The notes below the pieces were generated by a model, which was given only the letters and a program-made list of their open reading frames with translations, was not told the DNA's origin and did not search any database. A stretch of DNA of 46,152 nucleotides from Candidatus Woesearchaeota archaeon (GTDB taxonomy: Archaea; Nanobdellota; Nanobdellia; Woesearchaeales; 21-14-0-10-32-9), in assembly GCA_021735165.1 (NCBI GenBank), contig JAIPHP010000009.1, forward strand, positions 1 to 46,152, given 5' to 3'. Of this stretch, positions 24,621 to 37,793 are shown one piece after another (position 1 is the first letter of the stretch; every line of letters starts with the position of its first letter). The translations under genes and the position numbers were made by a program.

Positions 24621-25328
24621 TCATAATCTTTTTGATACGTATCTTTTTATGTGCTCTATAAATTTTTTCTTTGTTTTAGAATCGATTTTTTTTGTTTGTC
24701 TTAATTCATAAGCTTCTCTGACAATATGATTTTCTGGAGAATTTTCTACCATAACTTTCCATCTTTTTTCGGGAGTTCTTCCTTTGGCTTTTTGTTCATT
24801 CTCATATAACCAAAATACCTGTTTTGCTATATCTTTAAAACCCATCTTCTTTTGTTCATAATTTGGAAAGAAAATACTATCAAAAGCTTTCAGCATGCCA
24901 ACATAATCTTGTTCATCTGATTTAATTGGAAACTTTGATGTATCTAATTTTTCGCCATATATTTGTTCATACAAAGGAATATGTTTTACGAACCTGCTTG
25001 TTGATGCTCTTCCTGGTTTAACCCTGGATGTTTTTAATTCGTATAAAGTATAATTGCTTAACTGTATTGATGGATCATATTTTTTCTTATACTTTTTTTC
25101 TAATTCCTTAAGTTTGCTTGTATACTTTTTTGATTTTAACACTGTTACTGTATCTAAATCACTCTTTTCAATCAGTTCTCTTCTTGGAAAGCTTCCTTTT
25201 ATGAATATAGCAATTATCTGATCTTTAGGAACATTACTAAGAATGATCTTTTTTGCAACAAGAGCTGATTTGATTGCTTTCTTTTCAAGATTCGTTGTAT
25301 TTTTCCAAGATTCCCAAAAATATTTCAT
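24621..25328 (-). CDS. nucleotidyltransferase-fold protein
   Basis: 235 residues. The motif GS-x10-DLD (Gly45, Ser46, Asp57, Asp59) in IFIKGSFPRRELIEKSDLD is the metal-binding signature of the pol-beta-type nucleotidyltransferases. The C-terminal part is helical (KQVFWLYENEQKAKG, VREAYELRQTKK), as in antitoxin MNT or aminoglycoside adenylyltransferases. The target is unknown. TATA-like AATATTTAAAAA on the minus strand lies about 25-30 bp before the ATG. It converges on the nfo gene with 1 bp between stops. Confidence 0.75.
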   Translation of the reverse strand: MKYFWESWKNTTNLEKKAIKSALVAKKIILSNVPKDQIIAIFIKGSFPRRELIEKSDLDTVTVLKSKKYTSKLKELEKKYKKKYDPSIQLSNYTLYELKTSRVKPGRASTSRFVKHIPLYEQIYGEKLDTSKFPIKSDEQDYVGMLKAFDSIFFPNYEQKKMGFKDIAKQVFWLYENEQKAKGRTPEKRWKVMVENSPENHIVREAYELRQTKKIDSKTKKKFIEHIKRYVSKRL

Positions 25329-28956: not shown

Positions 28957-29039
28957 AAAAGAAGGAGTTTTGTTTAATTTATAACTATTGCTATATTAAT
29001 TTGCCAGCATCTATTTACATGCAAAAACCAAAAAGATCT

Positions 29040-29157
29040 ATCTTTTAAGAAGGACACGAATGACATCTTGCTTCGTATGTTCAAAAATTTGCGATTAAGA
29101 AAAAATCATTAAAGCTTTATCTTTTAAGGCTGGAAATAGATTATTTCACCAAATTTT
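29040..29157 (-). repeat. two-copy intergenic element, copy B (candidate RNA)
   Basis: Read on the minus strand, this 118-bp stretch aligns end to end with 37594-37712 (+). Shared blocks: AATCTATTTCCA (29131-29142 complement), TTCTTAATCGCA (29090-29101 complement) and TCTTAAAAGA (29041-29050 complement), with spacings of 41 and 51 against 40 and 51 in the other copy. A hairpin GATT...AATC before the middle block is kept. No frame is preserved, so it is more like an RNA gene or mobile repeat than a gene relic. Confidence 0.6.
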
Positions 29158-29241
29158 TTTTACATTAATTTCTGACTACTAGCACGCAATAGTTAACAGT
29201 GTCATAATATTTATATAGTTCTTAAATTGACATTGAATAAA

Positions 29242-30732
29242 ATGGTAAATGTACAGATAGACAAAGAAATTAATACAAAAACTCAAGTTCTTGTTGTTGG
29301 AATGTTCAATGAATCTCATGATTACTTTAAAAATTTAAATCCTGAATTACATCAAAAAATAGCAGATGCTGTAAAAAGAAAAAAGTTTTCTTTGAAAAAA
29401 GATGAATATCTTTCAGTACATATAACAAACTCTGTTTATGAAAAAATTGTTGTTTGTTGTCTTGGCTTTGAAAATGAAGTCTCTTTAGAAAATATAAGAC
29501 GTGCCGTTTATAATGGAATATATTCTTCTCAGATCGATAAATTTTCAAGCTTAACAATAGATTTAACAGACATTTTAAATAATAAATTCGATGAATATGA
29601 CTTGGGAGTTGCACTAGGCGAATCTATTTTGATGTCCACATACACTTTTGAAAATCATATATCCGAAGATAAGAGAAAAACAACAATAAACAACATCAGC
29701 ATTCATATGAGTAAAAAGAGCAGTAAATTTTCATTGGGTTTAAGACATGGACAAATTATAGGAGAATCTACTAATTTAACCAGAGACTTAGTAAATGAGC
29801 CTGCTAATATTGTGAATCCTGATTATTTAGAAAAGATTTGCAAAATGATTGCTAAAAAAAATAAGACTTTGAAGGTTACTGTTTTAAACAGATCCGAGCT
29901 TATCAAGAAAAAAATGGGAGGCATTTTAGCAGTTAGTAGTGGAGGAGGATTTGATCCAAAATTAATTATTATTGAATATAAAGGAAATCCTAAATCAAAG
30001 GAAAAATATGCTTTAGTAGGTAAGGGAATAACTTATGATTCAGGCGGATTAAACATTAAACCCACAGGATACATGGAAGATATGAAAATAGATATGGGTG
30101 GAGCAGGAGCTGTTATCGGCACTATGAATGCTGTAAGCAACATAGGCATTAAAAAAAATATTGTAGGCGTTATCCCTGCTTGTGAGAACATGATTTCTGG
30201 CTCAAGTTACAGACCAGGAGACATAATACGCATGTATAATGGAAAAAGTGTTGAAGTCAAGAATACTGATGCGGAAGGAAGATTAATTTTAGGTGATGCT
30301 CTTAGTTATGCTGAAAAGGACTTAAAGGCTGACAAAATTATTGATTTGGCCACGCTTACCGGTGCTTGTATGGTTGCTCTTGGATATGAAGCGTCTGGGC
30401 TTATGGGAACTGATGATGAACTTAACAGAGCTCTTAAAGAAGCTGGATTTCGTAGTTATGATAGAGTTTGGGAATTACCTTTATTTGAAGAATATATGGA
30501 TCAAATGGATAATGACATTTCTGATTTGAAAAGTCTTAGCAGTCCTGGAAATGGAAAGTATGGAGGCGCGATTACAGCAGGTGTTTTTTTAAGTAAATTT
30601 GTTGAAAATGCTAAGTGGGCCCACATAGATATTGCAGGTCCTGCTTACTTTGAGAAAAAAAGATTTTATGTGCCAAAACACGCCACTGGTGCGGGTGTTA
30701 GATTGTTGACTTATTTGTTTTTAAAAAAATAA
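29242..30732 (+). CDS. pepA: leucyl aminopeptidase (M17)
   Basis: 496 residues from the ATG at 29242; the TATA ATATTTATATAG (about 29205-29216) is ~26 bp upstream, and a TTG at 29227 would be too near it. The M17 catalytic domain has metal ligands Lys261 and Asp266 (GKGITYDSGGLNIKP), Asp in KIDMGGAGA, and the signature NTDAEGRL at 341-348 with Asp and Glu ligands and the catalytic Arg. The N-terminal 160 residues are the usual macro-like domain. It removes N-terminal residues from peptides as a hexamer in the cytosol. Codons here are T-ending, unlike the suf operon. Confidence 0.93.
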   Translation: MVNVQIDKEINTKTQVLVVGMFNESHDYFKNLNPELHQKIADAVKRKKFSLKKDEYLSVHITNSVYEKIVVCCLGFENEVSLENIRRAVYNGIYSSQIDKFSSLTIDLTDILNNKFDEYDLGVALGESILMSTYTFENHISEDKRKTTINNISIHMSKKSSKFSLGLRHGQIIGESTNLTRDLVNEPANIVNPDYLEKICKMIAKKNKTLKVTVLNRSELIKKKMGGILAVSSGGGFDPKLIIIEYKGNPKSKEKYALVGKGITYDSGGLNIKPTGYMEDMKIDMGGAGAVIGTMNAVSNIGIKKNIVGVIPACENMISGSSYRPGDIIRMYNGKSVEVKNTDAEGRLILGDALSYAEKDLKADKIIDLATLTGACMVALGYEASGLMGTDDELNRALKEAGFRSYDRVWELPLFEEYMDQMDNDISDLKSLSSPGNGKYGGAITAGVFLSKFVENAKWAHIDIAGPAYFEKKRFYVPKHATGAGVRLLTYLFLKK

Positions 30733-30750
30733 AAAAATAAGTTAAAAGAA

Positions 30751-30810
30751 TTATTCTTCATCATCGCCGCCATAGTCGAAGTCATCATCGTCGTATTCGT
30801 CTCCTCTCAT
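30751..30810 (-). CDS. acidic 19-residue microprotein
   Basis: The frame reads MRGDEYDDDD then FDYGGDDEE: 11 of 19 residues are Asp or Glu. The ATG has AAGGTGG upstream on the minus strand, about 6 bp away. It is directly downstream of a 30-residue Lys-rich protein in the same direction, and both have ribosome sites, so I think the pair is real. A counter-ion or chaperone for the basic partner is a guess. Confidence 0.45.
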   Translation of the reverse strand: MRGDEYDDDDFDYGGDDEE

Positions 30811-30823
30811 ATGGTCCACCTTC

Positions 30824-30916
30824 TTACTTCTTCTTTGCTACTTTCTTTTTTACTGGTGCTTTCTTAGCTGCAGGTTTTGCTGCTGCTTTTTTAGCTGTTT
30901 TCTTTTTTGCTGCCAT
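30824..30916 (-). CDS. Lys/Ala-rich histone H1-tail-like microprotein
   Basis: 30 residues made of Lys, Ala, Pro, Val and Thr (MAAKKKTAKKAAAKP...), about half Lys, like the tail of histone H1 or of bacterial H1-like proteins. Strong Shine-Dalgarno GGAGGT on the minus strand, about 7 bp before the ATG. TATA-like ACTATATATTA (about 30953-30963) lies upstream and a small hairpin GAGAC-N7-GTCTC forms in the leader. It probably binds nucleic acid. The acidic microprotein follows 13 bp later. Confidence 0.6.
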   Translation of the reverse strand: MAAKKKTAKKAAAKPAAKKAPVKKKVAKKK

Positions 30917-31060
30917 AGTGACAACCTCCGCGGAGACTTTTTTGGTCTCTCTAATATATAGTTAAAGTCAGAGAAATGACAATGAATAAAAAATCTAGAA
31001 CTATATCATCATTTTGTTGTTGTGGAAGTATTTAAATATTTTGATTTGTATCTTAATGTA

Positions 31061-33271
31061 ATGATCAAATTTTCGAATGTTGTAAAGGTGTTTATTTTTC
31101 TTATTCTAGTTCTTGGTTCCTATCAGATTTATCTTATTTATTTGGATGAATTTTTTGATGCTTTAGATCTGAATTTGAATCCTTCCCTTCAAGAAAGGAG
31201 CGTTGTTAGAGGAGAGAATTTTGAATTACGAGCGGATCTGGGAATAAAAGTAAAGGATTATTGTAATTTAAAATGTTTTTATGAATTGACTTCCAGCGGA
31301 GGAATTAGAGATGCTGATAATTTTTCTGTATTGCTAAACGATGATTTAGAGTTTTTGTTTGAGGAGAAGATTTCTAATTATGGTTTTGGAAAGTATCTTT
31401 ATTCTTTAGATGTAAAGTGCGTTCCTGATAAAACTCTTGGTTGTTCTGATGATTTTAAAGAAACTGCTGATTCTGCTTTGTTTATCGTTAATTTCGAGCC
31501 TAATAAGCAGGATATTTTGTTGTTAGATAATTTTAGAAAAGATTATTTTGATCTGGCAAAATTGGATGTTTCTAGTCTTAAATATTATGATTTTGTTTTG
31601 GAATCAAAAAATATTTCAAAGATAAAGCTTAGGAATCTCGATGAATTTTTGCTTTTGATAAGACTAAGATTAAATCATACACAATCTGTTTTTGATGAAT
31701 TTAGTAGTTTGTGGGTTGAACAGAATCCTAATGTTATTGAGGGTGTTGTTTCTAAAGATGAGATGATTTTTGCTAAAGAGACTGAATTTAAAATTAAATC
31801 AAAGTATTTAGAGATAAATAGTCTTATCACTTCTTATAATTATTCTGTCGAGGCAGCCAGGAGCATTCTTAATAAATCTCATTTAATTGACAGCATTTCT
31901 TTTAATGTTGTTTTTTTAGGCAATAATTATTCTTATTTATGGAAATCTAAATATGATTGGGCTACTAATGATATCAGAGATCTTAATTATGGTGGTGTTT
32001 ATAATTATTCTTTTATTTTAGAGAATTTAGAAGAATTTAATGTTTTGGTGGATGAGTATTCTTATTTGTTTTTTGAGGATGTTTCCGATAGACGAGATTT
32101 GCTTGTTGAGTCTTTTTTACTAAGTAATGATTCTTCTGTGGCTGATTTGTTTTATAACAATATTAGCTGGTATGATAATTCTTGTATTTATTTTGATAAT
32201 CTTTCATTTTCAGATAATTATAGTGGTTTTTCTTGGGAGTCTAGGTTAGATGACTTTTATGATTTGTTTGATGAACCTATTAATTTTTCTTATAATAAGA
32301 GTTTAGATGCATTTAATTATACAGTTGTCATCAACAATATCAATAATTTTTTAGGGGTTTGTAATTCCAGAAAAAAACTAGATTTATTGCCTGAGTTAGA
32401 TTCGGAAGAAATAGATTTTAGATTGAAGAATCTTTCAAAGGACTATAGCTTGCCTGATCCTGGAGAGATTTGTTGTGCCAATAATGGATGTTTTGAATGT
32501 GACTTTGAACCTAAAATTCCTTTGATAATGCTTCATGGTCACAGTTTTAATAAAAATAACAGGCCCGAGTATAATAGCAACATTTTCAATGATTATGTTG
32601 AAAATTTTGATGATAGACGTTATTATCATGCAGGGTTATTTAATATTGAAAATGGTTCGATGGGCGTTTTGTCTGGGTTTGACAAACCTTTTTTGTTTAG
32701 GTATTCTTATTATTTAGATAGTGTCTTAGGAGAAGATAAAATTTCTAATGAAGCTAGTATATCTGAATACTCTGAAAGATTAGATTTTTTTATAGATAAT
32801 GTTTTGAATTTAACAGGAGCTAATAAAGTAGATATTTTGGCACATTCTATGGGAGGTCTTGTTTCTAGAAAATATGTTTTAGATAATGGTCCTGAAAAAA
32901 TTAATAATATGATTTTGGTTGGAACACCTAATAATGGCATAACTAAGACAATAAGCAATGTTTGTCCTGTTTTTGGTTCTAAAAGGGAATGTGATGAAAT
33001 GAAAAAAGATAGTGATTTTATCTTGGCTCTTAATTCAAATGTTAATAATACATTAGTTGACAATACGTATTTGTTTGGTGGTGTTGGTTGTTTTTTGGAT
33101 GGATTTGCTTCTGATGGCGTTGTCATTTTACCAAATCTTAATTTGACTGGCGTGCCTTTAATTTTGATAAATATGAGCTGTTCTAAGATGAATTTTATTC
33201 ATAATGATTTGTTGAATCCTGAGATTTTTCCAAGTATTTACACAAGTATTGAAAATATATTATTTGAGTAG
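31061..33271 (+). CDS. secreted/anchored alpha/beta-hydrolase (lipase/PGAP1-like)
   Basis: 735 residues. One hydrophobic span at about 5-25 acts as signal or anchor, leaving the rest outside. Residues 40-470 are Asn/Asp/Tyr-rich and unrecognised, perhaps a stalk or binding domain. The C-terminal ~260 residues are an alpha/beta-hydrolase: PLIMLHGHSF (oxyanion loop), AHSMGG with nucleophile Ser596, VGTPNNG, and a His near NFIHNDL. This pattern is that of lipases and PGAP1-like hydrolases. TTTAAATATT at about 31031-31040 is the TATA box, so the GTG at 31022 cannot be the start. Cys pairs (CNLKC, CCANNGCFEC) suggest disulfides. Confidence 0.8.
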   Translation: MIKFSNVVKVFIFLILVLGSYQIYLIYLDEFFDALDLNLNPSLQERSVVRGENFELRADLGIKVKDYCNLKCFYELTSSGGIRDADNFSVLLNDDLEFLFEEKISNYGFGKYLYSLDVKCVPDKTLGCSDDFKETADSALFIVNFEPNKQDILLLDNFRKDYFDLAKLDVSSLKYYDFVLESKNISKIKLRNLDEFLLLIRLRLNHTQSVFDEFSSLWVEQNPNVIEGVVSKDEMIFAKETEFKIKSKYLEINSLITSYNYSVEAARSILNKSHLIDSISFNVVFLGNNYSYLWKSKYDWATNDIRDLNYGGVYNYSFILENLEEFNVLVDEYSYLFFEDVSDRRDLLVESFLLSNDSSVADLFYNNISWYDNSCIYFDNLSFSDNYSGFSWESRLDDFYDLFDEPINFSYNKSLDAFNYTVVINNINNFLGVCNSRKKLDLLPELDSEEIDFRLKNLSKDYSLPDPGEICCANNGCFECDFEPKIPLIMLHGHSFNKNNRPEYNSNIFNDYVENFDDRRYYHAGLFNIENGSMGVLSGFDKPFLFRYSYYLDSVLGEDKISNEASISEYSERLDFFIDNVLNLTGANKVDILAHSMGGLVSRKYVLDNGPEKINNMILVGTPNNGITKTISNVCPVFGSKRECDEMKKDSDFILALNSNVNNTLVDNTYLFGGVGCFLDGFASDGVVILPNLNLTGVPLILINMSCSKMNFIHNDLLNPEIFPSIYTSIENILFE

Positions 33272-33295
33272 GAGGTTGTTAAAATTAGCGGCTAT

Positions 33296-33739
33296 TTGTT
33301 TCATTGGTTTTTTTCTGTTTGTTTAGCAGCGTTATTCTTGTTAATTGGTATTTATTATAGCGTAGTTTCGTTGACGTATATATTTTTGTTTTATTGGATT
33401 TTTGTTGTTGTTTTAGGAGCATTGATACCAGACATTGATTCTAAGAGCTCTATGATCTCAAGGTTATTATTGCCTTTTGCTGGAGTTTTCATTATTTTAG
33501 TTTTTATTGGCATTATTTCTTTTTTTCAAGGGTTTATTCTTTGTTCGTTTTTACTTATTCTTAAGATTTATAGTGTTTTATTTAGCAGACAAGGAAAATT
33601 TCATAGAAGATCTCCTCATTCTGTAATTTTTGGGTTTTTTGTGGGTTTAGGAATATTCTTTTTGTTTGAAAGTTGGATTTTATTTGCGTCCTTCTTTATT
33701 TCTTTTTTAGCACATATTATTTTAGATAGATTTTTTTAG
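33296..33739 (+). CDS. YdjM-like membrane-bound metal-dependent hydrolase
   Basis: About 147 residues with four hydrophobic spans. The family marks of the YdjM/LexA-binding inner-membrane hydrolases (PF04307 type) are HWFFS near the N-terminus, GALIPDIDSKSS, RRSPHSVIFG and AHIILDRF, whose His and Asp residues would bind metal. The TTG at 33296 is the usual choice. However, AGGAGG at 33270-33275 is better spaced for an ATT at 33284 (four residues longer), so a rare ATT start is possible. The biochemical role is unknown. Confidence 0.75.
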   Translation: MFHWFFSVCLAALFLLIGIYYSVVSLTYIFLFYWIFVVVLGALIPDIDSKSSMISRLLLPFAGVFIILVFIGIISFFQGFILCSFLLILKIYSVLFSRQGKFHRRSPHSVIFGFFVGLGIFFLFESWILFASFFISFLAHIILDRFF

Positions 33740-33854
33740 ATACTCCTTATTTATCTGAAATCATTAGTGTTTATGCAGGATTCGGAGTAAATTATAGAAA
33801 TGTTTATATATGAGAAGTGATGGGTTGTTATATAATTCGAGAGGTGGTTCGAAA

Positions 33855-34115
33855 ATGAACAAAGCAGAATTAGTAGAAGCAGTAGCAAAAGAAACTGGAT
33901 TTACAAAAGCGGATGCTGAAAGAGCACTTGAAGCAACAATGAAAACTGTATACAAAGCAGCTAAAAAAGCTCCTGTACAACTAGTAGGATTTGGAACTTT
34001 CAAGTTTTCAAAGAGAAAAGCTAGAACGGGCGTTAATCCAGCAACTGGAGCTAAATTAAAAATTCCAGCAAAGACTGTTTTCGTCTTTAAAGGAAGTAAA
34101 AACCCAAAATATTAA
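33855..34115 (+). CDS. hup: HU/IHF-family DNA-binding protein
   Basis: 86 residues: helical dimer base MNKAELVEAVAKETGFTKADAERALEA (read to ~28) and beta arm with GFGTFKFSKRKARTGVNPATG and FKGSKNPK; the arm-tip Pro (NPATG) intercalates in HU. Bends and packs DNA as a dimer. The ATG at 33855 has GAGGTGG upstream; TATA TTTATATATG at 33800-33809 gives a leader. Bacterial HU in an archaeal setting, as with Thermoplasma HTa, together with gyrase suggests bacterial-style chromosome packing. Confidence 0.92.
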   Translation: MNKAELVEAVAKETGFTKADAERALEATMKTVYKAAKKAPVQLVGFGTFKFSKRKARTGVNPATGAKLKIPAKTVFVFKGSKNPKY

Positions 34116-34124
34116 TTTTTGGTT

Positions 34125-34153
34125 TTACTTTATTTTTATTTTTTTTATTTTTC
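34125..34153 (+). terminator. T-rich tract after the HU gene
   Basis: Runs of T separated by single A residues begin about 10 bp after the HU stop and reach the convergent rhomboid gene. Archaeal RNA polymerase stops at such U tracts without a hairpin. Confidence 0.45.
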
Positions 34154-34158
34154 TTGAT

Positions 34159-34956
34159 TTATTTGATTGATACGTAATATATTATTATAAGTATCGCTAA
34201 AGATATTAGGTTTATTATTAGGCCTTTTTTCATTTTAGTTTTGCTTTCTATGCCTATAACAAATGACAGTATTGCTACTGATAAGAATCCTCCTAGATGC
34301 GCGAAGTGTCCTATTCCGTCTGCTGAAGGATTGAGTATTCCTATTATGTCCAGCCATATTGTTAGCCAACCTACAACCATTATTGGCAGAGGAAATATTA
34401 ATTCATATGTAAAATAGAATGGCTCTATAAGTATTGCTGCTGCAACTAAGCCCATTATTGCGCCGCTTGCTCCTAATCCTGGCGTGTTATTTTCTAGGAT
34501 ATAAAGGTTTATTATTGATGTGAATATTCCTGAAATTATGAGTGCTCCAAAATATATTGTTGCTGTTTTTCCTGCACCTATTTTTCTTTCAAGAACTCTT
34601 CCGAATATGAATAATGCGAGCATGTTCCCAAGAAGATGTGCTATACCTGCATGCAAAAATCCTGCTGTTATTAAGGTATAAGGTCTTATCAGTAAATCTG
34701 CAGGGTATTGTATCAAGCTGAGCAGGGTTTGTTCTGGAAGAAACAATGAGATTATGAAAACTGCTATGTTTATGATTATTAGTGTTATTGTGAATTTTGG
34801 TTCAAATATGAATTGGTATAGATATTTAAATGGAGCAAAAAGATCTTTTGGTTTTCTTTTTCCAAAGAGCATAAGTATAAGAGTTGCTGGCGTTAGTAGT
34901 AGAAGTCCTATGAATTTCCAGAGGAATTTGCTTTCGGATTGTATTTCTGTTTTCAT
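34159..34956 (-). CDS. rhomboid-family intramembrane serine protease
   Basis: 265 residues, six or seven membrane spans. Catalytic Ser164 in GLGASGAIMG and His220 in FAHLGGF form the dyad; His107 and Asn111 in HLLGN stabilise the oxyanion. An N-terminal span and an Arg/Lys-rich loop (FGKRKPKD) precede the core. It cuts membrane proteins within the bilayer; substrate unknown. Its start overlaps the preceding coiled-coil gene by 4 bp. Confidence 0.9.
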   Translation of the reverse strand: MKTEIQSESKFLWKFIGLLLLTPATLILMLFGKRKPKDLFAPFKYLYQFIFEPKFTITLIIINIAVFIISLFLPEQTLLSLIQYPADLLIRPYTLITAGFLHAGIAHLLGNMLALFIFGRVLERKIGAGKTATIYFGALIISGIFTSIINLYILENNTPGLGASGAIMGLVAAAILIEPFYFTYELIFPLPIMVVGWLTIWLDIIGILNPSADGIGHFAHLGGFLSVAILSFVIGIESKTKMKKGLIINLISLAILIIIYYVSIK

Positions 34957-35378
34957 CTTATAAATTCGTTTTCTGCTCTATTTACAGTGTTTTTAAAGTC
35001 TGAATCTTTTTTTTCTATCGCGTCTATTATTGAGTTTAGAGAACTTAGAAGGGTTGTTTTTTGTTTTTTTTGAAATTGTATTATTGCTATTTTTATGTAT
35101 TCGAATTCTTTTTTTAGTTTTTGAAGTTGTTTGTTTATAGATTTTAATTTTTCAATATGTCGCCAGGTTTCAGATTCTCTATCAATATTTGGTCTCCTTA
35201 GATCTGTAGCTTTTTTTATTGCTATTGATACGTTGAAAGATTCAAACATTTCCTTCATTAGGAGATATTTTTCAATTTTATGTTTTAAGTCAAATAAAGA
35301 AATTGATATTTCTTTTAGAATGTTTAGGTCATATTCTGTTAGTTCGAACTCGTATTGTTTTATTTTTATACTGGCCAT
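34953..35378 (-). CDS. coiled-coil hypothetical protein upstream of rhomboid
   Basis: 141 residues, strongly helical, with long K/E/L-rich stretches (YDLNILKEISISLFDLKHKI; INKQLQKLKKEFEYIKIAI) likely to form coiled coils. No signal or membrane span. The 4-bp overlap with the rhomboid gene indicates translational coupling, so it might be a cytosolic partner. No family recognised. Confidence 0.6.
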   Translation of the reverse strand: MASIKIKQYEFELTEYDLNILKEISISLFDLKHKIEKYLLMKEMFESFNVSIAIKKATDLRRPNIDRESETWRHIEKLKSINKQLQKLKKEFEYIKIAIIQFQKKQKTTLLSSLNSIIDAIEKKDSDFKNTVNRAENEFIR

Positions 35379-35483
35379 TATGTTATTTTAAGCTCGCTGT
35401 TTTTATTTCTTTCCATAAAATTTAAATAGTATTATGAATATATATTCATAACTAAGCGTGATAAAACGCTGGAGGTAAATAAA

Positions 35484-35633
35484 ATGCCAGGATTTGATGG
35501 AACAGGACCTGAAGGAAAAGGACCTAAAACAGGAAGAAAATTAGGAAGATGCACAGATAAAGAAGACCAGAATGAAATACAAAAAGGACAAGGACTAAGA
35601 AGAGGCCTTAGAAGAAGACAACAACAAAATTAA
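35484..35633 (+). CDS. DUF5320-like small protein
   Basis: 49 residues starting MPGFDGTGPEGKGPKTGRKLGRC, the Gly/Pro-rich opening typical of DUF5320, then a charged, Arg-rich helix. One Cys. Strong Shine-Dalgarno GGAGGT before the ATG. DUF5320 genes are often near DUF134 regulators and dinitrogenase-cofactor-like proteins, and here the DUF134 gene follows 9 bp later. Function unknown. Confidence 0.8.
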   Translation: MPGFDGTGPEGKGPKTGRKLGRCTDKEDQNEIQKGQGLRRGLRRRQQQN

Positions 35634-35642
35634 TGAGTTTAA

Positions 35643-35924
35643 ATGCCAAGACCAAGACATAGAAGAAGAATAAGCTTTGATCCAGAAGCAACTTTCTTCA
35701 AGCCTGCAGGAGTTCCGATGAGAGAACTAGAAGAGATTACTATAGAACCAGATGAGCTTGAAGTTCTGCGACTTAAAGATTTTCTTGGATTAGACCAAAA
35801 AGACGCAGCAGATATGATGGAGATATCTCAACCAACTTTTCACAGAACATTATTAGTTGCTAGAAAAAAGGTTTCTCAGGCATTAGTAGAAGGAAAAGCA
35901 ATAGTTCTTAAAAAAACAAACTAG
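35643..35924 (+). CDS. DUF134 (UPF0251) HTH regulator
   Basis: 93 residues. MPRPRHRRRISFDPEATFFKPAG is the standard DUF134 N-terminus, then a sigma70-region-4-like helix-turn-helix at about 50-80 (LDQKDAADMMEISQPTFHRTL). A probable DNA-binding regulator; the effector may be a metal, judging from other genomes where it neighbours iron-molybdenum cofactor proteins. Translated from the same message as the DUF5320 gene. Confidence 0.88.
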   Translation: MPRPRHRRRISFDPEATFFKPAGVPMRELEEITIEPDELEVLRLKDFLGLDQKDAADMMEISQPTFHRTLLVARKKVSQALVEGKAIVLKKTN

Positions 35925-35948
35925 AGAATTCAAATTGGCTAGTACAAC

Positions 35949-36275
35949 CTATCTAATGAATTTAGCACCGGAATCCGAAGCGTAAGAATCTTTTAATCTT
36001 TGAGATTCTGAAGATGAATAGCTAACTAAATCAACTGCCTTGTTTATTGCACTCAAATAGTTTTTATCATCATTTTTTTGCTTAACATAAGCTCTAACTA
36101 TCGGCCCATTTGTCGAACCTCTAAAATAAACATCTCCTTTTCTTAGTAAAGTGACTTTATCTAACAACTTATCTATCGAAGAGGACTTGTCAGAACTAAA
36201 TTTAGGCAAATTCGTAGCTGTAGAAACATAATTGTCTGCTACAGACTTATTTAAGTAATTAAAATTTATCGACAT
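35949..36275 (-). CDS. hypothetical protein
   Basis: 108 residues from the ATG at 36275, unrecognised, Ser/Lys/Asp-rich, with possible strands KGDVYFRGSTNGPIVRAYV. The frame is open to an ATG at 36326. However, the TATA ACTTTATAAAC at about 36298-36308 lies between, 25-30 bp before 36275, so the shorter, leaderless form is preferred. No Cys and no membrane span. Confidence 0.5.
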   Translation of the reverse strand: MSINFNYLNKSVADNYVSTATNLPKFSSDKSSSIDKLLDKVTLLRKGDVYFRGSTNGPIVRAYVKQKNDDKNYLSAINKAVDLVSYSSSESQRLKDSYASDSGAKFIR

Positions 36276-36418
36276 CGTATTATCAATAAAATGCGTTTGT
36301 TTATAAAGTTTTCGGTATGTTGTCATTTGCTAGTGATCATAAATTTGAAAATTGCAAGTTCTATAATGCGCGAAATTAATGAAAACTCAAAGCATCACAA
36401 TCAACACTCAAACATATC

Positions 36419-37477
36419 TTAAAAAAACCATTTTACTAAATATAAAATATCTTCAACCATCTTGTTAAAAAAACCCCTATTTTTCCAAACTTCATAATTA
36501 AATAAAGAAGAATCTTTTATTGATTGCTTTATATGACTCTCTAAGCCTTTCATTATTAATTTATTTCTTCCTAAAAGACTTAATTCATACTGATGAAGAA
36601 AACTCCTATAATCAAGGTTCGCAGTATTTATAAGAAACGCATCATCTATGATAGAAAGTTTAGCATGAAGAATTTTTGGTTCGTAGTAATATATTTTTAT
36701 TCCAAATTTATGTAATTTCCCTAAATATCTTTCTTTCAACAAATCTACTGTTTTTACATCCGATATTCTAGGAGTTATCAAAAATATTTTTACTCCTCTC
36801 TTCGCCGCTTTTTTTAGTGCGTTTGTAAAATGCAAATCCGGTACAAAATAAGGCGTTTCCAATATAATTCTTGATTTTGCTTTATTTATAAGTTTTATAT
36901 GCCTGTTTTTTATGCTTTGAAAAATGTGACTTGGCTTATCTGCAATTAGTTCAAAATCTTTATATTTTATTTTATTAGTTCTTTTTAGAGGATTTGGAAA
37001 ATGAAATTTTCTTTTATTAAAATTCTTCATAAATATTTTTACAAACTGTTCTACAATAGACCCTTTAATATTTATCACTAACTCCCTCCAAAAGAGGCAT
37101 TGTTGTTCTATGTTCAAAGAACCAAAATAAACAATTTCCTCATCTATAACATACATTTTTCTGTGATCTCTCTTATGATGCGCAGCAATAAATTTCCATT
37201 TTAGATGAAATTTTCTAAAAAATTTAACTTCAGCACCAAGTGTTTTGAGCTTAGTAAAATAGCTTTCAGAAACTTCCGAACCAAAGGAATCTATGAGAAG
37301 TTTCACTTTTATACCTTCAAGCGCTTTCTTTTCAAGAACCTCCCTAAAATTGTGACCTATTGAATCGCCTGCATATATGTAAACTTCTATGTAAATAGAT
37401 TTTTTAGCTTTAATGATATCCGAAAGAATATCATTATATGCTTTCAATGGTTCGTCATAGAGCTTAAAGCTTTTCAT
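36419..37477 (-). CDS. phospholipase D / cardiolipin synthase-like
   Basis: 352 residues with two HKD motifs: His105-Lys107-Asp112 (DHRKMYVID) and His271-Lys273-Asp278 (LHAKLSIID), each followed by an Asn/Ser-rich strand. The two-domain layout without N-terminal membrane spans resembles ClsB-type enzymes, which join phosphatidyl groups; exact lipid substrate uncertain. The frame is open to 37558, but TTTATATATTG at about 37498-37508 is a TATA box, making the ATG at 37477 the probable leaderless start. Confidence 0.85.
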   Translation of the reverse strand: MKSFKLYDEPLKAYNDILSDIIKAKKSIYIEVYIYAGDSIGHNFREVLEKKALEGIKVKLLIDSFGSEVSESYFTKLKTLGAEVKFFRKFHLKWKFIAAHHKRDHRKMYVIDEEIVYFGSLNIEQQCLFWRELVINIKGSIVEQFVKIFMKNFNKRKFHFPNPLKRTNKIKYKDFELIADKPSHIFQSIKNRHIKLINKAKSRIILETPYFVPDLHFTNALKKAAKRGVKIFLITPRISDVKTVDLLKERYLGKLHKFGIKIYYYEPKILHAKLSIIDDAFLINTANLDYRSFLHQYELSLLGRNKLIMKGLESHIKQSIKDSSLFNYEVWKNRGFFNKMVEDILYLVKWFF

Positions 37478-37593
37478 TACTGTGAATATACAAGCACAAT
37501 ATATAAATTTGATTAATTTTATTAATTTTATTACTAAAATAGATCCATGCATATTCATGCACTAATTTATTAAAAACAAAACATTTGCAAAAG

Positions 37594-37712
37594 TAAAAAA
37601 ATGTCGAAACAATCTATTTCCACATTAAAATGTGGAGCTCTAACGATTAGTTCTTAATCGCAGATTTTTAAACAAACAAAGCAAGACGCTATTCACATCC
37701 ATCTTAAAAGAG
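37594..37712 (+). repeat. two-copy intergenic element, copy A (candidate RNA)
   Basis: A 119-bp match to the minus strand of 29040-29157. Two local hairpins: TCCACAT-TAAA-ATGTGGA (37619-37636, perfect) and CGATTA-GTTC-TTAATCG (37644-37660). In the other copy both positions also pair, but with different bases. It occupies most of the 316-bp gap between the PLD and MazG-like genes. Nothing else is seen in that gap. Confidence 0.6.
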
Positions 37713-37793
37713 GAACTTTATAACTTTCATACATAAGAAGAACTCATTTTTGGCTAAATATGAACGAGCAGAGAAAATAAAATAACTACTGCT

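Follow-up and report, generated by a model that had tools for sequence, protein, structure and literature searches.

A dispersed hairpin repeat in a woesearchaeal genome is probably a decayed, non-autonomous IS200/IS605-type element

Two copies of a repeat at the locus

We analysed a window of 46,152 nucleotides, contig JAIPHP010000009.1 of the Candidatus Woesearchaeota archaeon assembly GCA_021735165.1, which is contig C9 of the 31 contigs that make up this 1.10-Mb genome (G000). The window holds two copies of a hairpin-forming repeat, and we use the name family A for the repeat that they represent. We consider it quite likely that family A is a fossil non-autonomous element of the IS200/IS605 type, of the kind described as palindrome-associated transposable elements (PATEs).

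The first copy lies on the plus strand at 29019-29163, in a gap between divergent genes, upstream of the one for a leucyl aminopeptidase (identified with Pfam and NCBIfam). Its ends are placed by the tetranucleotide TTAC: the left end starts at 29019, directly after a TTAC read in the sequence at 29015-29018 on the plus (sense) strand, which is the putative target, and the right end closes with the TTAC at 29160-29163. The second copy, which has the start of a PLD-family gene and a weakly MazG-like gene as its neighbours, lies on the minus strand at 37593-37732. Its ends were placed in the same way, with the left end at 37732 and the right-end TTAC appearing as GTAA at 37593-37596 on the plus strand. 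The left flank of this copy (37733-37736, minus strand) reads TTAT on the sense strand, making its left and right tetranucleotides TTAT/TTAC, compared with TTAC/TTAC in the 29 kb copy.

A preliminary description of this DNA had read the reverse of what we take as the sense strand, placing the 29 kb copy on its minus strand, and had reported a two-copy element of about 118 nt in opposite orientations, with conserved blocks at equal spacing. The homology and the opposite orientation are borne out (78% identity over query positions 2-118 in a BLAST search of the whole genome, E 5.8e-21), and all three conserved blocks that it quoted are present in both copies, but the distance between the first and second blocks differs by one base, owing to an alignment gap. 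The extent needs correcting as well, as the similarity passes both of the ends given there and the element measures about 140-145 bp. Nor is the repeat confined to two copies: a sequence profile (R1) built from six of them has 12 matches in the genome at E 2.6e-5 or better, the six building copies being counted among the 12.

Copies in the genome

The building copies are those at C13:7676, C28:7255, C14:24078 and C7:47274, together with the two in the window (C9:29013 and C9:37587), which the profile matches at 29013-29167 (E 2.2e-35) and 37587-37738 (E 1.1e-32), both values being for copies used in building it. The profile also finds three partial copies, one without the far end (C5:42073), one with the first half only (C4:19229) and one with the second half only (C16:303), and three short forms from which the core is deleted (C28:11090, C25:10920 and C1:64243). 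A BLAST search of the genome with a single copy returns eight places, including the query itself, at E 3.9e-4 or better, and the pairwise identity among the eight copies compared is 70-81%.

The copies are dispersed through the genome in both orientations. At the eight loci that we read, they sit between longer open reading frames (ORFs), in divergent, co-directional and convergent gaps, with no fixed place or orientation relative to the genes; the C4 copy touches the end of one ORF.

Two side observations were made at this point. A profile match in the window at 24895-24998 (plus strand) is below threshold (E 0.044) and lies inside an ORF on the other strand (24621-25328); it is probably due to chance and was not counted. 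In addition, about 5 bases from the partial copy at C16:303-389, a tRNA match occupies positions 394-522 on the minus strand of the locus (L008). The tRNA is probably intron-bearing, because the match spans 129 bases.

Ends and anatomy

Read on the sense strand, a copy of A consists of TTAC, a left hairpin, a right hairpin and TTAC, with the two hairpins side by side just inside the ends. The left hairpin has outer arms of the ACATACGAA/TTCGTATGT type, while the right hairpin has outer arms of the AAAAATTTGC/GCAAATTTTT type, inner arms of the GAAACAATC/GATTGTTTC type and an apex around CCTTTTAAGG. Among the 11 copies that retain the right end, 8 have TTAC there, and among the 10 that retain the left end, 5 have it in the left flank. 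By eye, the similarity among copies falls off past these TTAC ends, except in three copies.

With a length of about 140-155 bp, A is too short for a transposase gene. A short open frame is present in part of the element in two copies, and it was rejected as a coding remnant on account of stops seen by eye in other copies, no protein-family search having been made with these frames. The three short forms fuse the left and right ends at TTAAAA, which is the loop word of both hairpins, and have thus lost the core by deletion between direct repeats.

Distribution and empty sites

The search for further copies in the genome and its relatives, proposed in the preliminary description, covered 40 genomes at the DNA level, namely its own and 39 relatives. 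Family A was found in its own genome and in none of the 39 relatives. The profile gave single matches in five relatives (E 1e-4 to 9e-3), which we took as AT-rich noise, and no match among the candidates scored, at most 75 per genome, in G001, the sole genus mate. Exact-pattern matches in six genome and three viral stretches (bacterial where named) were taken as chance and served as a control for the model described below.

Two G001 gaps have both neighbours conserved, and A is missing from both. The gap between the PLD-family and MazG-like genes measures 45 bp in G001 versus 235 bp in the window, and the gap between the ribosomal S3ae and Dph2-type genes, which flank one A copy and speak for an archaeal genome, measures about 95 bp in G001 versus about 192 bp in G000. 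The insertions are thus specific to the lineage, one of the features by which PATEs are recognised. The 29 kb site does not provide a clean empty-site test, because only one neighbour is conserved in G001 and the other side is occupied by a different long ORF, purF-like by eye.

Family B and its nested hairpins

A different repeat, which we call family B, was first listed by the A profile below threshold (L031 and L032). Its layout is like that of A, with two neighbouring hairpins and CCTAAAGG-type loops. The B matches among those listed number 39 in G000, 23 in G001 and 13 in G010, and a match of some kind, in many cases weak and short, occurs in 18 of the 40 genomes at E up to 1. A covariance model built from A alone (R2), such as the preliminary description had suggested, retrieves nine B elements at 33-46 bits (E 5.5e-6 to 2.6e-3), seven of them in G000 and two in G001. 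Another B scores 26.7 bits, and the first unassigned match follows at 19.8 bits. The matches of this model in the genus mate are to B only, with none to A. Over 32 loci that bear B or resemble it, 16 reach E 0.01 or better, including loci of G010, G014 and G018. A motif search of 26 loci found 20 B left ends, each preceded by TTATT, and the right ends are mostly TTATT too. At 47.2 kb on contig C7 (locus L022, 1440-1510), an A copy directly adjoins the end of a B element; therefore, the two families can sit side by side.

Hairpins of B in its own genome (L071-L081) and in G001 (L092 and L100) carry nested hairpin units at recurring places. These units lie in loops, between CCTAAA and GG, and by eye also at the hairpin junction and between GGGGTA and TTAAACCCC. 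In 11 of the 12 loci scanned we found 13 inserts between CCTAAA and GG, eight of them distinct and 50-105 bases long, which fold with z-scores of -3.2 to -9.7 relative to mononucleotide shuffles. One 42-mer is present seven times in G000 with zero mismatches, every time at a B locus, and does not occur in G001 within three mismatches. Locus L092 of G001 has the identical nested layout with different stem letters.

The link to Y1 transposases

The left end of B leads to transposase genes of the Y1 (IS200) type, and there is good support for B as a non-autonomous element of the IS200 type. Directly, this left end is 94% identical over 31 bp to sequence upstream of a Y1 tnpA in G024 (E 2.3e-9; this and the following E-values refer to a subject of a few kilobases). 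Stepwise, it is 85% identical over 60 bp to a left end located where a G001 contig stops (E 1.6e-14); the latter is 80-81% identical to the left ends at contigs C16 and C19 of G000 (E 4.4e-34 and 1.3e-34), and these in turn are 82-83% identical over 123-127 bp to the DNA upstream of the G024 Y1 gene (E 8.6e-34 and 5.8e-36). Four genomes have Y1 loci with a B match within 200 bp, five loci in all (G024, G033 twice, G034 and G010), although four of the five matches extend over just 15-24 bases (E 0.03-0.4). A 544-bp Y1 element that has TTTATT at each end is common to two loci of G033. We also observed that in G010 (C31:28478-28827, locus L126) the Y1 gene is matched in two pieces, the second with an internal stop, and that a short B-type hairpin match lies 39 bases behind it.

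A Y1 match occurs in 15 of the 40 searched genomes, in some of them as fragments only. Several contigs stop within or close to a left end of the IS200 type, namely C16 (1-140) and the end of C19 in G000 (L085 and L084) and C3, C23, C47 and C11 in G001 (L095, L097, L099 and L098). These contig-end sequences suggest multi-copy autonomous elements that collapsed in assembly and are missing from the bins. Because C16 and C19 break inside such left ends, an unassembled tnpA is likely to exist in G000. The idea of a tnpB or omega-RNA remnant was rejected, as the TnpB C-terminal domain PF07282 is not found in G000, A has no Rfam match and B has none above any family's gathering score.

Intergenic palindromes in opposite orientations could also belong to a repeat of the REP/BIME kind, associated with a domesticated Y1 transposase present in single copy (RAYT) instead of a mobile insertion sequence. 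The same enzyme class would act in that case. We regard this explanation of A as very unlikely, however: no Y1 domain was found in G000 and there are just 12 copies, while the layout is common to A and B and the B left end matches left ends at several contig ends.

Decay of the hairpins

In an alignment of eight A copies (A6) with a family structure of 36 pairs, 78.3% of the cells are paired, versus 33-48% after the partner has been shifted by one to three columns; therefore, the inverted repeats of A are real. The consensus pairs at 33 of the 36 positions, and seven near-full copies keep 24-32 pairs out of 32-36. The hairpins of A are thus ancestral, but they have decayed copy by copy. A total of 67 stem cells differ from what the remaining copies have as consensus; pairing is lost in 52 of them, and it is retained through a one-sided change in 11 and through a two-sided change in 4. 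Two-sided changes occur in 5 pairs, where shuffling gives 4.7 on average, and the covariation score of 0.081 is below its shuffled mean of 0.087 (both with eight copies). Hairpins broken independently in single copies argue for the decay of a palindromic ancestor and not for a maintained RNA fold.

These counts bear on a reading offered in the preliminary description, which had noted changes in stems that stay paired, namely that A is a small RNA family. Each structured copy would then be a gene or else a cis-element retained because of its fold. It is true that the consensus folds into two long hairpins, that the C28 copy, folded as DNA, does far better than dinucleotide shuffles (z -3.45), and that of the few pairs with two-sided changes, four out of five are in the apical hairpin. 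Nevertheless, we judge the RNA reading to be very unlikely. The two window copies differ at 15 of the 36 stem pairs, and just one of these 15 is paired in both, via a two-sided change. Covariation, whose absence had been named beforehand as weakening this reading, does not exceed that of the shuffles, most departures break their pairs, and the other six of the seven copies folded have z-scores between -1.1 and 0.6. Moreover, Rfam gives no gathering-score match in the window and, at the A copy loci, up to E 5, only a tRNA and one sub-threshold match, both outside the element. The varied gene context and the failure to find A in the genus mate also speak against it.

Finally, A is short, non-coding, dispersed and lineage-specific, as a classical miniature inverted-repeat transposable element (MITE) moved by a DDE transposase via its terminal inverted repeats would be, but this is highly improbable, since no terminal inverted repeats and no consistent target duplication are seen: in one full copy (L022) the 30 bases at one terminus are not an inverted repeat of the 30 at the other, the longest words common to both flanks measure 3-7 bases in the nine copies compared and are AT-rich and without consistent pattern (TTAC at both ends being expected from the mechanism considered below), and the inverted repeats are internal, forming two separate hairpins.

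Discussion

The other reading in the preliminary description, a non-autonomous mobile element, is the one that holds, as A is dispersed, specific to its lineage, absent from two gaps of the genus mate, present in core-deleted forms and laid out like an IS200-type family. We take A to be a probable PATE, old and probably inactive, with B as its younger relative, because A has the layout of B, its own TTAC, which is the target of IS608, and features of PATEs. For the latter we used six features drawn from PMC3119063, and A shows four of these, namely ends without terminal inverted repeats, near-terminal palindromes, a length too short for a transposase gene and lineage-specific insertion.

The two long hairpins of A would be its left and right ends. 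While A was active, a Y1 transposase (the HUH enzyme TnpA), supplied in trans by an autonomous IS200-type element, would have bound the two hairpins on single-stranded DNA, made its cuts at TTAC and excised A as a circle. The circle would then have been inserted 3' of a further TTAC, with neither terminal repeats nor a target duplication. We infer that such a transposase moved A by cleavage at TTAC, and that A would no longer be active. In the excerpted text of PMC5934647, IS608 inserts 3' of TTAC, which stays in the left flank.

Three known systems resemble A, each in part. According to the excerpts of PMC3119063, the PATEs of Haloquadratum walsbyi likewise have no terminal inverted repeats, near-terminal palindromes, a length too short for a transposase and divergent copies. 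Core deletion between repeats in both ends leaves them in a terminal-only form, similar to the short forms of A, and they are targeted by other repeats, as B is here. They differ from A in their sequences and in their archaeal lineage, and the long hairpins side by side are a trait of A. IS608, of the IS200/IS605 family, also has a hairpin at each end and TTAC in its left flank, as far as the excerpts of PMC5934647 describe it, whereas A has no tnpA or tnpB and carries TTAC at the right end where IS608 has TCAA. A PATE-like element of Halanaerobium hydrogeniformans has no tnpA and has IS605 ends, and such elements are said in the part of PMC7290912 that we used to move in trans; unlike A, it keeps part of tnpB, is present in a single copy and has a bacterial host.

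Several results weigh against a PATE origin of A. No parent transposon carrying A's own ends was found, and G000 contigs yielded no Y1 domain and no PF07282, the one TnpB domain searched for. Sequence alone barely connects A with B, the A profile giving E 0.2 and 0.35 on two B copies. The covariance model misses or underscores B loci with large inserts and scores 10 bits at best over 16 Y1 loci, where A has no direct match. In its control, nine loci retrieved with an A motif, it reaches 23 bits (E 0.017) at a place outside the motif. Furthermore, the profile and model searches scored a capped number of candidates in each genome, up to 75 in each relative for the profile. As for the ends, TTAC is absent from the left of half of the A copies, the right end could be farther out, since three copies have about seven further bases in common past the right TTAC, and the right ends of B at L074, L082 and L090 differ from TTATT. 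The empty sites, in turn, are resolved to gene level, their flanks being too diverged for base-exact sites.

It is tempting to go further and to speculate, although we find it doubtful at present, that A and B are two ages of one self-nesting hairpin lineage moved as folded single strands by Y1 in trans. Under this proposal, B would grow by small two-hairpin units (TGC-hairpin-GCA, twice) that enter loops and stems at fixed places, hairpin into hairpin. The excerpts of PMC3119063, PMC7290912 and PMC5934647 contain no description of such a process for units this small, and the nested-palindrome literature among the matches listed consists mainly of CRISPR and general archaeal papers.

Among the matches listed in the open-licence literature, there is no description of element A, which is most likely a new family of a known kind and not a new RNA gene. 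What appeared to be a small-RNA family is explained as worn mobile DNA, and hairpin-ended IS200-type debris is documented in an archaeal order with small genomes. Since repeats of the A and B kind stand at contig ends here, they break assemblies, and in comparative scans such repeats imitate structured RNA. The younger family B, with its units nested in hairpin loops, provides an accessible case for studying the spread and growth of palindromes.

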